A stretch of DNA of 64,000 nucleotides. It comes from Albugo candida. Taxonomy: Eukaryota > Oomycota > Peronosporomycetes > Albuginales > Albuginaceae. The DNA lies in the NCBI GenBank assembly GCA_905220665.1, contig CAJNAR010000004.1, positions 186,001 through 250,000 on the forward strand, given 5' to 3'. The first letter of the stretch is position 1. Every line of letters starts with the position of its first letter. The notes under the pieces are model-generated. The model was not told the origin of the DNA and searched no databases. It worked only from the letters and a program-made list of their open reading frames with translations. Below are positions 13,338-18,509 of this stretch, piece after piece. The position numbers and the translations under genes were made by a program.

Positions 13338-14894
13338 TTGTTCACCATGCGCTACAAGATAAGCATCGTAGTAATGATCGTCCTAAGTACCTGTTTTGAG
13401 AGCACGCTTCTCAACATAGCTACTGATGTTGATGAGCAGAAAGGTGCTCCCACACATGAGTACCTATTTGGCAGAGATATGATTGATTTTCTGCAGTATC
13501 AGGTTTGCCATACGCCAGACCTCAGCGGGAGCGTAGAAGATTCCGGATGTAACTATGAGACCGTAGATAAGGCCGTCTCCGAACACTTTCATCCACTATT
13601 AGAGGAATTATCTCAGCTACGTTTTTTTCGCTACTTTAAAGTGAATTTGGGAAAAGAATGTCCATTTTGGGTTGATGATGGCATGTGTTCCAGCATCGAC
13701 TGTGCTGTTTGTGAATGCCCACAACATGAGATACCTCACACATGGTCTAAAGTGGAAAAAACCATTCTGGCGACTTTGAAACCCAAAATAGAGACCAAAA
13801 AGTCGGATGGAACCACATCCGATGCTCTTGGTAAACCGTGTTCAGATCAAGCAGGAGAAAGCGCTCTCTCTTGGGTAAACAAACACGATGCATTTTCTGG
13901 TGAAACCTACCAAGAATGGGAGGATGGAGACGAATCTGAAGTTTGGAGTGAGTCTGAAGATGACACTAACATGGTCTACATCAATCTATTAGAGAATCCG
14001 GAGAGTTATACTGGATATAGTGGATACCAGGCTACACGGATTTGGGACGCAATTTATAAGGAAAACTGTTTCGTCCCTTCAGTAGGAATGTGCTTCGAAG
14101 AACGCGTGTACTACAAACTGATCAGTGGTCTACAAGCTTCCATCAACACTCACATTGCCTTGAAATACAAATATGGAGAGTCTTGGGGACCAAATCCTTC
14201 TTTGTATGTAGAACGCGTTGGAAAGCATCCTGAGAGATTGCACAACTTGTATTTTGTACACTTGTTCGTTATGAGAGCACTCGGTAGATACCGAGATGAA
14301 TTACTGCAGTATGATTTTTCTACTGGCGATGTAAAAGAAGACAAGCGTGTGGTGGAGATTCTGCGTCGTGTGGTTCTAGAAGAGAAGGAAAAAGCAGCTT
14401 GTCCCGTGGAAGGCCAATCTGTGCTAACGGGATTTGATGAGCAAGCTCTATTCCGAGTGAAGCGCGGTAAAATGAGCGCGGAGCAATATTTGGTTGCTCA
14501 ATCAGAAAAGCGCCGCATTGAAAATCAATTTCGCGAGAAATTCAGAAATGTCACTCGAATTATGGATTGCGTGAGTTGTGAGAAGTGCCGGTTATGGGGG
14601 AAGCTTCAGATATTGGGACTAGGCACAGCAATCAAAATTCTTCTCGCTGAAGACATCAAACGACTTCCAAAACTACAACGTAATGAGATTATCGCTCTGA
14701 TAAATGTTGCCAACAAACTTGCTCAGAGTATCAAAGGAGTAAAACTGCTTCGCCGACTCGAGCTTTTGGACACCCTCAAGACGTTTGGGGTCATTGTTGG
14801 CATAGCAATCGCCTTCGTCGCATTGATCATTCTTTACAAGCGAAAGCGAGTAAAGCGATCTGAAAAGAGAAAGTCTAAAGAGAAGTCACAATAG
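13338..14894 (+). CDS. ERO1: ERO1, endoplasmic reticulum oxidoreductin
   Basis: Single exon, 518 aa. ERO1 is a flavoenzyme that reoxidises protein disulfide isomerase in the ER lumen, passing electrons to oxygen. An N-terminal hydrophobic signal (residues 4-22) and one C-terminal membrane segment (about 482-500, VGIAIAFVALIILY) followed by a basic cytosolic tail give a luminal type I layout. Diagnostic blocks are CPFWVDDGMCSSIDCAVCEC (shuttle-cysteine region), the YTGYSGYQATRIWDAIY flavin region, and the active-site CxxCxxC in MDCVSCEKCRLWGKLQ. Many ERO1 proteins lack a membrane anchor; this one has it. A TIR transposon begins 32 bp after the stop codon. Confidence 0.95.
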   Translation: MFTMRYKISIVVMIVLSTCFESTLLNIATDVDEQKGAPTHEYLFGRDMIDFLQYQVCHTPDLSGSVEDSGCNYETVDKAVSEHFHPLLEELSQLRFFRYFKVNLGKECPFWVDDGMCSSIDCAVCECPQHEIPHTWSKVEKTILATLKPKIETKKSDGTTSDALGKPCSDQAGESALSWVNKHDAFSGETYQEWEDGDESEVWSESEDDTNMVYINLLENPESYTGYSGYQATRIWDAIYKENCFVPSVGMCFEERVYYKLISGLQASINTHIALKYKYGESWGPNPSLYVERVGKHPERLHNLYFVHLFVMRALGRYRDELLQYDFSTGDVKEDKRVVEILRRVVLEEKEKAACPVEGQSVLTGFDEQALFRVKRGKMSAEQYLVAQSEKRRIENQFREKFRNVTRIMDCVSCEKCRLWGKLQILGLGTAIKILLAEDIKRLPKLQRNEIIALINVANKLAQSIKGVKLLRRLELLDTLKTFGVIVGIAIAFVALIILYKRKRVKRSEKRKSKEKSQ

Positions 14895-14913
14895 TGTAAA
14901 TCCTTTACACTAT
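14891..14913. repeat. Perfect 23-bp palindrome overlapping the ERO1 stop
   Basis: Two 10-nt arms (left arm ATAGTGTAAA) flank TCC, and the left arm contains the ERO1 TAG stop. The arms share the GTGTAA/TTACAC core with the tips of the adjacent transposon. It may be a transcription-end hairpin or a footprint of an earlier insertion. Confidence 0.6.
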
Positions 14914-14926
14914 GGTAACGAGTTTA

Positions 14927-14953
14927 CACCGGTGGACATTTAAAATGGCCCAG
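14927..14953 (+). repeat. Left terminal inverted repeat
   Basis: Begins CACCGGTGGACATTTAAAAT just inside a TA. It matches the reverse complement of 18451-18477 at 24 of 27 positions. Confidence 0.9.
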
Positions 14954-15110
14954 CTAAAGTCGGCAAATCAAAGTCCCTCCGTCAGGCATTTCAGCCCATG
15001 TGTAAATTGTGATTTTATGCTGTCGATGCAACAGCACTGTCCGCCTCAGGCGGTGTTGCGGCTCTACTCAGGTATGTCGGGCGGCTTCTGCCCGCCAGTG
15101 ATTCTCTTGT
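14927..15110 (-). ncRNA. Candidate Fanzor guide-RNA (fRNA) scaffold
   Basis: Reading on the minus strand, the 3' end of the Fanzor frame and the short non-coding stretch to the TIR contain two GC-rich hairpins in an otherwise AT-leaning sequence. One spans 15028-15059: CCGCC/GGCGG stem with a 3-nt loop, extended by GCAACA/TGTTGC with a 7-nt bulge. The other spans 15080-15096: GGCGG/CCGCC with a 7-nt loop. TnpB and Fanzor scaffolds are known to overlap the 3' end of the nuclease gene and run to the element end, with the guide read from outside. Position and structure fit, but no RNA evidence is available. Confidence 0.35.
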
Positions 15111-16966
15111 AAGTCGCGCGGTGTTGATGGCTGAGTTGACATCTCTGTTCCATAGCTTATTGCACTTTTTGCAAGCCAATAAACCATGTACTAAGCGGAG
15201 ACGTCGCTCGTTTTCTGCCAGTTTCTTCTTGGGCTCTAAGCGAACTCGAAACTTCTCACACTTTGCATCTTCCTGCTGACAGTGCGAACACTGACAACTC
15301 GTCCTGAACTCATCGACCAAGTAGACTTTGTAGCCCCCATTGCGAAGCAGATTGCGAAATCCCTTTCCTTTCGTTGGTTCTTTAAACTTCCGATGTTTCT
15401 TCTGTTCCGAGTCAACAATACCGATGACGACCTCTTCAGGCTTTTTTAATTTCTGAGCCAAGCGATGTAGCATTTTCTGTTCGGATTTGCGAGTGTTCCA
15501 GAACCTGTTCAGTTTCAGTTTGCGGTAGATTCGAGCTTTGTAGGAAGTTTCTATTTTGGAGTTGACCAGGAGCTTTGCCTGCACATATGCCTTGAATCCT
15601 TCAAACGACAAAGTTTTATGGTTGTAGACCGTCAAATCAGTCTCCCACTGTGTGATACTGCGTTCCTCGACATACTCGTGGTTCTTGGCGTTCTGTATGA
15701 TCTGGTCGTATTTCTTCTTTTTGGTCTCTTGTCGGCGCTGATTCTGCGTGTATCTGAATTGTTCACTTGCGTCCTCATTGGCACAGTACAGTAGGTCGCT
15801 CATATTGGGATCGATGCCGATGACTTTGCGCTTCGAGAGCTCATCTATTTCGCTTCCCGTGATGTCATCAATGTACTGCTCTGGTTGCACTACTGCTTTC
15901 CTCTTCGGCGTCTTCTTACCATACAAATCACTCCTGATGAATAGTAAAGAAGCCGAAACGCCATCAGTGTCAATCATATTATTGAACCGATACTTCTTCA
16001 TAGCAAACTCTTTCTTGTTGACATGAAAGAAAGTGCCCCAAATCATGGCTTTGTTCCTGACGAGTTCTCCTGCTGTCAAGAGCTTCGACTTTGCTCCTTG
16101 ATCCCACAATAGATGAACGAGAGTGGTTGTATCCAATGTGATATGCTTCGGAATCAGGCTGGTTCTCAGAGGACAGAAGCTTCGGGGTCTTCGATTCGCT
16201 TGTTCAACAAACGCTGTCATCTTCAGCATAGCAGGGTAATAGTCTTGTGGCTTGCACTGAATGTCGTAATAGATTAAAGTCTTCTCAAAGCGGCTCTTCG
16301 ACGGGAGAATAATTTTCTTGTGATCACGAATCCATAAGTGGTAACACACATGCTATTTGAATGGCGAATTGTCGACACTCAATAGATCGTTTTTGATATC
16401 CCTCAGGGTCGGCGTCATTTTCCGAATCGATGCATCTCTTTCTCTATTGGTTTTACGAATCCGACGAATGCGGCTTTCTAGGTCATGTTTCTGCTATGCT
16501 GTGTTCACGTAGGATTCCACGTATTCAACATAATACGCCTTGATATTAGTCTCGAACATGGTCACGACTTGAACCGCTGCATAATCTAAGACAGTGCTCA
16601 GGTATTTGTAAGAGATTGCGGTGTGTTTTCGGGTAGCAATGGAGCAAAATGTTCATTGTAAAAAGCTGTCAGAGTGTTTCGCAAGGCTTGCATCTTTGCT
16701 GAAGGAGGCCGACCGAGCGGAGTCTGCTGGTAGACAGTTTTGAAGATCGTATCCACCAGCTTGAGGTCTACTTTGAGACTATCATCGATTCGATGAATCA
16801 AATACAGCTTCAAGAAAAACAGAGATCTGCTGACTATCTTGTCGACAGTACAAACAGATGAGGTGATCGTTTCTCCTTTCGACTTGAGTTTGATGATTGA
16901 GGCCAGACTGGTCTTCAAAGATTTGTACTGGGGTAATCAGGGATCTGGTGGGTCTACAAATTCCAT
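15015..16966 (-). pseudogene. Fanzor (eukaryotic TnpB-like RNA-guided nuclease), interrupted
   Basis: An uninterrupted 444-codon stretch (16349-15015) holds the catalytic half. It has the Fanzor hallmark MIDTDGVSASLLF, RuvC-I Asp in VIGIDPNMSDLLY (codon at 15812-15810), Glu in YLVDEFRTSCQCSHC (codon at 15311-15309), and RuvC-III Asp in NRDVNSAINT (codon at 15143-15141). A zinc ribbon is formed by CQCSHC and CKKC. The usual RuvC-II Glu position is not obvious, matching the rearranged active site reported for Fanzor. Upstream sequence reads MEFVDPPDP, a TGA stop, then QYKSLKTSLASIIK (16966-16600). A frameshift follows near 16610, then YLSTVLDYAAVQVVTMF, a TAG after YVNTA and a TAG after NSPFK near 16355. 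Repaired length would be about 650 aa, normal for Fanzor1. I read it as a dying gene with an intact nuclease core. Confidence 0.87.
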
Positions 16967-17380
16967 ATGTTGTGTGTTTTTCTATATTGTTCCCCGGGGT
17001 TTTATTATCAGATTTGAAACGCACTTAGTTTTTCTGCAAATAATATCGAGGAAGCCGTTTAGGATCTTTTTGCTGATCTTTACTGCACCACGTGTGGTGA
17101 TCTTTTGTGACGGCTTTGGCGATAGACAGCCACGGACGAGCCAGCTTTCCAGGAGTGTTTGCTCCGGGTATGAGGGTATATGAAAAATATGTCCTTATAT
17201 CCGGTATCAACTCTAGTAACTGGCGTTGCCTATCCGTGTCCTGATCCAGATCACCGAGCTAGACGCTAGAATGCTCGTCGAGACCAAGGATAGCAACAAC
17301 TTTGTCACTAAGTTGGCGCTGTTCAGCAGCGTAAAGATCAGCCTTCGCTCTCATCTTATGCACAAGACATATATATATGT
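16967..17380. other. Spacer between transposase and Fanzor inside the element
   Basis: No convincing frame on either strand. It presumably held the 3' UTR of the transposase and the promoter of Fanzor when the element was active. Confidence 0.5.
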
Positions 17381-18365
17381 TTATGTTTGTTTATACTGCT
17401 TCGGCGACATGAGTAGAGTGGAATCGCGTGGTCTTCGCCTCTGAGGATATTCACGACGTCTATAAGCGTACCGAAAATATTCTCGGTAATTTGATGGCTT
17501 GATCATGCTGATGACTCTCACTATGTCTGTACGAATACCCTGTATGTTGCGGGTGTGAGCTGTTGACATGTGATATTTGAATTGATTAAACCACCCCTCT
17601 CTAGCGTTTGTCTGAGGGTTATAAGGCACACTGTTTAAGCCAGATGGTTCCCGAATCGGCTATCAAGGCACGAATAGAGTGACCTTTGTGAGCCCCGGCG
17701 TTGTCCATAAAAATAGATAGCCACGTGAACGGTTATCATTTATGAGTCTAGTCAAGAGAATGACCATTCTTTCTGTCGTTGGCTCCTTGGTCATACATTT
17801 CCCAACCCAACAAGCTGCGGCTTGTGATTGCCCCGACAAAAGTGTGTTTTGTGAATACCTGGTTGTTATTTGTGACCTGTATGCATCGTTCACCCAAATC
17901 GCATCTGCTGTGTGCTCTATACATAAATGGCGTCAGCGAAGTTTCGTCAATGGATATGATTCGATCAATAGGATGTGCATCCGTCAAACGGTAAAATGCT
18001 CTGAGTTGTTGACTTCAGTTCACTGGCTGCCTGTATCTTTGTCTGGGAAAATGACCATGACGCGTCCTTTTTCTTGTCAAATTATTTTCCCTGTCGACTC
18101 GTGATAGGTGTCTTGCTGAAATATCTATCCTTGGAAAACGTGCTTGAATTGCACTCAACAGCTCTGTAGAAGATATAGTCTGATGAGTTCTGACATATTG
18201 AACCGCCCATGCGGCTTGCTCCTGTGTGATTTTGTAGGATATAGGATCACGGTTTTGACGCTTCAGAGAGTGAATATCACGAAAACGACGCGTCCAACGT
18301 GTAAGTGAACGTTTTGGACAAGAAAAAGCCCTCGCGGTGACTTGCCGGTTGTGTGACTGATTCAA
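17381..18365 (-). pseudogene. IS630/Tc1-like DDE transposase, frameshifted
   Basis: Blocks in at least four frames follow one transposase. 18365-18015 reads as an N-terminal helix-turn-helix region (KRSLTRWTRRFRDIHSLKRQ, then a winged segment with ARHLSR). 17987-17748 includes IISIDETSLTPFMY, the first catalytic Asp. Near 17725-17690 another frame gives FMDNAGAHKG, the second Asp. 17629-17381 includes YNPQTNAREGWFNQFKYH, which carries the terminal Glu. TA target duplication and a DDE triad of this spacing are typical of the IS630/Tc1/mariner superfamily. The frame changes show it cannot make an active enzyme. Confidence 0.8.
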
Positions 18366-18450
18366 ATAATGTTAAACAGCGGCAACTTTGTAATCCTCTG
18401 ACTTATGCTTAATTACAACCTAGAATATACTGGCATTTTAACGGATTTCA

Positions 18451-18477
18451 CAGGGCCATTTTAAATATCCGCCGGTG
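18451..18477 (-). repeat. Right terminal inverted repeat
   Basis: Minus-strand read begins CACCGGCGGATATTTAAAAT and is flanked by TA at 18478-18479. It differs from the left repeat at positions 7, 11 and 26. Confidence 0.9.
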
Positions 18478-18509
18478 TAAAAGCAGTACTTCAACTTCAA
18501 TTTAGAGCA

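Follow-up and report, generated by a model that had tools for sequence, protein, structure and literature searches.

The window, by which we mean the whole 64,000-nucleotide stretch of Albugo candida DNA analysed here, contains a 3.55-kb element at 14925-18479 (the TA duplication counted at both ends), in which a transposase gene is followed downstream by a Fanzor1 gene, both read from the minus strand. The features are listed below.

14925..14951, plus strand: left inverted repeat with the TA duplication (repeat proper from 14927)
18453..18479, minus strand: right inverted repeat with the TA duplication (2 mismatches against the left end)
17384..18365, minus strand: broken transposase of the IS630/Tc1/mariner type, its HTH and motifs in two frames
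17028..17258, minus strand: conserved middle peptide of 77 residues between transposase and Fanzor, possibly a third gene
15015..16966, minus strand: Fanzor1 gene, about 650 codons if the ATG at 16966 is its start, which is a guess
15015..16349, minus strand: open C-terminal 444 codons with the TDG motif, the RuvC acids and the zinc ribbon
14923..15006, minus strand: candidate omegaRNA scaffold, 84 nt, with the repeat end and the TA in its closing helix

A preliminary description of this DNA had given the element a length of 3.55 kb, inverted ends of 27 bp and a TA duplication, all of which are present. The ends are identical at 25 of 27 positions, with the TA included, and since the 27 bp contain the duplicated TA, the repeat proper is 25 bp long. 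In having inverted ends and a TA duplication, the element conforms to the IS630/Tc1/mariner type. When the left end was searched against the window with up to 3 mismatches allowed, only its own site and the right end were matched (chance expectation 0.00), and at the same stringency no copy of these ends beyond the two was detected in the 38.9-Mb genome. Further copies with the same ends, which the preliminary description had proposed to look for and whose absence it had named as counting against its reading, are thus missing from the genome at this threshold, although kinship does not require them. The whole element used as a DNA query against the genome likewise matched its own locus only, in a type of search that may undercount repeats.

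The element is adjoined by the ERO1 gene (13338-14894; Pfam 4.4e-112), whose stop lies 30 bases before the element start. Just outside the element, we also noted a hairpin at 14891-14913 with perfect 10-bp arms (ATAGTGTAAA/TTTACACTAT), which overlaps the ERO1 stop codon and has GTGTAAA in common with the element ends.

The transposase and the Fanzor1 gene

The DDE transposase that had been described is recognizable by its motifs and HTH, but it is fragmented over two frames. The HTH part occupies 18015-18365; SIDETS (17954-17937) and MDNAGAH (17708-17688) are in one frame with stops in between, and NAREGWF (17608-17588) is in another. The NCBIfam model transpos_IS630 was matched by the HTH piece at 1.6e-5 and by the MDNAGAH piece at 0.026, both far under the cut-off, and Pfam HTH_32 was matched at 0.0036, also under the cut-off. 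None of the transposase pieces matched Pfam DDE_3; for the central piece, searches of Pfam, NCBIfam and the PDB were all negative, and the HTH piece matched only unrelated PDB chains (E at least 0.45). We place the transposase with IS630/Tc1/mariner because of the ends, the TA, the motifs and the weak model matches under the cut-off. The genome holds 48 matches to DDE_3; for the 30 of these 48 that were taken as loci, tblastn with the element peptides gave no match at E 0.01.

The Fanzor gene is identified by its open 444-codon frame. In the PDB, this frame matched SpuFz1 (Spizellomyces punctatus Fanzor1, 8gkh) at E 3.8e-36, Parasitella Fanzor1 at 1.2e-30 and Guillardia Fanzor1 at 3.4e-13, the fourth row being unrelated (E 0.83). 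It also matched Pfam PF07282 at 4e-8, over the cut-off, as the single match to this family in the genome, and NCBIfam guided_TnpB at 8.2e-13, under the model cut-off of 100 bits. The motifs TDGVSAS, IDPN, DEFRTS, CSHC, CKKC and NRDVNS are all found in the frame. The Fanzor hallmark noted earlier on the minus strand is in place as TDGVSAS at 15968-15948, the TDG motif being assigned to the WED domain of Fanzors (PMC10711439). The three RuvC acids picked out earlier, D180, E347 and D403 in the numbering of the frame, align with the catalytic residues D383, E541 and D606 of SpuFz1 (numbering from PMC10432273 and PMC11423790), and the zinc ribbon has its four cysteines, in CSHC and CKKC, followed by the RD of NRD. 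The RuvC motif reads DPN, as it does in SpuFz1; DPG is given as the typical motif (PMC10711439).

The 444-codon gene of the preliminary description does exist as an open frame, but it covers no more than roughly two thirds of a Fanzor gene, at the C-terminal end. When 15015-16652 was translated with an X at each TAG, the resulting 545-codon frame matched SpuFz1 at 3.9e-39 over frame residues 22-532, and before this aligned part a different frame reaches the ATG at 16966. On its own, the first Fanzor piece (16601-16936) gave no match in either Pfam or the PDB; we assign it to Fanzor because it is alike to loci L011 and L013 (8.6e-10 and 9.0e-8). By eye, MEFVDPPDP, a stop and LPQYKSLKTS at the start of the gene resemble LEFRDRPPEPDVSSYESTKIS of L013. 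The AlphaFold model of the Fanzor frame from the single sequence had a pLDDT of 33, too poor to use.

The Fanzor1 gene is broken by one frameshift, located somewhere from about 16652 to 16601, and by three stops, namely a TGA (16937-16939) and two TAGs (16494-16496; 16353-16355). The 444-codon frame opens after the second, in-frame TAG with GTG at 16349 and not with ATG. The earlier proposal of a Fanzor nuclease within an IS630/Tc1-like element thus stands for the Fanzor, which is of type 1, but not for a working nuclease; an intact gene, which function would need and kinship would not, is lacking here. Reading TAG as an amino acid was ruled out because the TGA and the frameshift would persist and because the ERO1 frame, the one gene available for this comparison, ends at TAG. 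An intron is an unlikely explanation of the stop at 16353-16355, where the SpuFz1 alignment continues ungapped; at 16494-16496 the SpuFz1 alignment has a 3-residue gap and that of Parasitella Fanzor1 runs through.

Related loci and the middle peptide

With the 444-codon protein as query we found three more loci in the genome, at about 205.5 kb of contig C10 and at about 214.8 and 400.7 kb of contig C158, with stops inside four of the five matches outside the window; a piece from the REC part (16497-16652) recovered the same three. A fourth locus, at about 287.0 kb of C158, was found via the central transposase piece. There, the transposase match is followed by two short stretches that match the first Fanzor piece (E 0.006), and the evidence for Fanzor is the weakest of all the loci, this one being absent from the results of both the 444-codon and the REC-part searches. 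At four of the five loci, the window included, pieces of the transposase precede Fanzor and share its strand. Among these four the C10 locus is the weakest case for a transposase (E 0.013, together with LMDNAGPH read by eye), and at the 400-kb locus of C158 no transposase piece was seen at E 0.1. Inspection of the five longest inverted-repeat pairs at each of the four other loci gave nothing convincing as ends. Judged by these comparisons, the four loci are distant, decayed relatives without ends like those of the element. The decayed Fanzor locus on C10 has a neighbour no more than about 1 kb away, a frame of 922 codons that includes a Myb-like domain (L011 4173-6941; 2.9e-6).

Between the two genes of the window element, the frame of the middle peptide continues beyond an in-frame TAG (17259-17261) and can be followed upstream as far as about 17345. 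A related peptide occupies the same place at the 214-kb locus of C158 (1.5e-5) and at C10 (0.011, or 1.2e-7 when the query was the C158 copy), its core reading RPWLSIAKAVTK in the window and RVWLSITREVIK at another locus. The match at the 400-kb locus is borderline (0.0108) and none was seen at the 287-kb locus, so that the peptide is clear in three of the five loci, counting the window, and weak in a fourth. Used as a query against the genome at E 0.001, the window's own middle peptide found only itself, and searches of Pfam, NCBIfam and plasmid records gave no match.

Between the window and the 214-kb locus, differences occur at 28, 20 and 36 of 50 each for codon positions 1, 2 and 3, and between the window and C10 at 17, 14 and 23 of 33, a pattern that looks as in coding sequence. 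The 214-kb locus and C10 differ from each other at 3, 6 and 5 of 33; the excess at third positions is absent, as expected if both diverged after decay. At the 214-kb locus, the frame of the peptide follows on from the end of the transposase and terminates ahead of Fanzor, and in the window stops flank it on both sides. The peptide may be a separate gene or the lost end of a neighbouring gene. Tentatively, and with considerable doubt, we suggest that the elements carried a third gene for a short protein, maybe one that acts together with Fanzor or with the transposase and has so far escaped recognition. We regard this peptide as the most novel feature of the element; intact elements could be searched for it.

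A candidate omegaRNA

In the predicted fold, the 63 nt from the Fanzor stop to the left repeat, taken together with the repeat, the TA and two flanking bases, form three stems, with UUUACAC (15006-15000) base-paired to the terminal GUGUAAA of the element. When the inner 63 nt were shuffled (n = 1000), the pairing of all of the last 7 nt with the inner stretch was equalled in 36 of 1000 shuffles, pairing of at least 6 of the 7 was reached in 102, and a fold energy as low in 19. The z-scores of the fold were weak: at the Fanzor 3' end, four spans of the minus strand gave values between -0.59 and -1.52, and the other end of the element gave +0.60. These predictions give modest support to the view that the 3' end of the element can adopt an omegaRNA-like shape; the RNA, the guide and the TAM are inferred. 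The flank below the candidate scaffold would be the guide, which might begin directly behind the TA or two bases further on, since the two A's at issue are base-paired in the predicted structure. At the emptied site, the Fanzor strand would show TTTTA ahead of the flank, and TTTTA has its last two bases in common with CATA, the TAM reported for SpuFz1 (PMC10432273).

Nature of the element, its ancestor and known relatives

The ends, the TA, the order of the genes, their homology, the catalytic residues and the breakage are all directly observed, and we conclude, with a probability of about 0.9 for both its identity and its broken state, that the element is a fossil transposon of the Tc1/mariner type with a transposase and a Fanzor1. 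The breakage could be read in another way, in that the open 444 codons might be under selection as a shortened, domesticated RuvC/zinc-ribbon protein without the first third of Fanzor. All four disabling changes indeed fall within the first ~206 of ~652 codons, and with the gene start set at 16972 the chance of such clustering is ~0.01, a figure that presumes even scatter and comes from a test chosen and computed after seeing the data. However, the frame starts with a GTG after a stop and not with ATG, most of the matches outside the window contain stops, and no relative close enough for dN/dS was found, so we regard domestication as very unlikely.

The breaks could also be errors of assembly or base calling in an element that is in fact intact and active. 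Although a frameshift may arise in sequencing, this would have to account for three separate nonsense codons in Fanzor as well as the frame changes and stops of the transposase, and the ends differ at 2 of 27 positions in the single copy found; we give this explanation hardly any credence. The same holds for the idea that the Fanzor and the transposase are unrelated relics that became mere neighbours when one was inserted next to the other. Recognisable ends are kept in one copy only, and the 400-kb locus, where no transposase piece was seen, would fit such an origin, but the transposase precedes Fanzor on the same strand at four of the five loci, and the middle peptide is shared clearly by three of them and at a borderline level by a fourth.

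For the intact ancestor of this fossil transposon, we consider the following working mechanism somewhat probable. The intact transposase would excise the element and paste it into a TA. Fanzor would be loaded with an RNA from the 3' end of the element, in which the last inverted repeat and the TA are followed by a guide of about 15 nt taken from the flank, and the loaded Fanzor would cut the emptied donor site, where repair from the sister copy would restore the element. This role of Fanzor in retaining the copy is suggested by analogy with work on TnpB. The present copy by itself performs none of these steps.

Fanzors have reportedly been surveyed by Jiang and colleagues in 2023. A search of a limited collection of papers for Fanzor together with Albugo returned only Bao and Jurka 2013 (PMC3627910), who report that Fanzor1 is carried by Tc/mariner elements that have TA duplications. 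According to their text, PUl-1 and PGv-1 encode Fanzor1 and a Mariner-like transposase, PUl being the code for Pythium ultimum, PUl-4 encodes Fanzor1 only, and the hosts they list include Pythium ultimum as well as, in their Table 1, Albugo laibachii and three species of Phytophthora (PMC3627910). Compared by description, these elements share with ours the Mariner-type transposase, the Fanzor1, the inverted repeats and the TA duplications, whereas both genes are broken here. PGv-1 also has a third, middle protein, a GIY-YIG endonuclease (PMC3627910); the middle peptide of the window has no Pfam or NCBIfam match. The two-gene arrangement put forward in the preliminary description is thus real, with a conserved peptide added between the genes, but it is not new, since such transposase-plus-Fanzor1 elements, as far as this source describes them, had been published also from Pythium (PMC3627910). 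The window copy is a broken further member of these known elements. With it, the record of Fanzor1 on Tc1/mariner elements gains a fossil as well as four more decayed relatives, and within a single genome the order of transposase and Fanzor is seen at more than one locus.

With SpuFz1, the window protein shares 30% identity over the C-terminal part, the three acids and the C4 ribbon, and the alignment extends further N-terminal; unlike the interrupted window gene, SpuFz1 has been shown to cut DNA (PMC10432273). The likeness to bacterial TnpB (IS200/IS605, IS607) lies in the guided_TnpB match under the cut-off and the Pfam TNB domain over it, but the window protein is closest to Fanzor1 and travels with a DDE-type transposase and a TA duplication. 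Bacterial TnpB elements use other types of TnpA than DDE.

Among viral contigs, neither the 7 pattern-matching stretches obtained with the Fanzor protein query nor the 42 obtained with the alignment query included a relative, a DNA pattern for the IDPN stretch had 0 matches there, and a search of phage records for Fanzor returned none. In prokaryote genome contigs, one of 15 stretches was Fanzor-like (26% identity; 2e-9, a value that refers to the candidate stretches alone). It lies at L050 3453-3854 on a 3.9-kb contig binned as Methylophilaceae, which is perhaps a stray eukaryotic contig.
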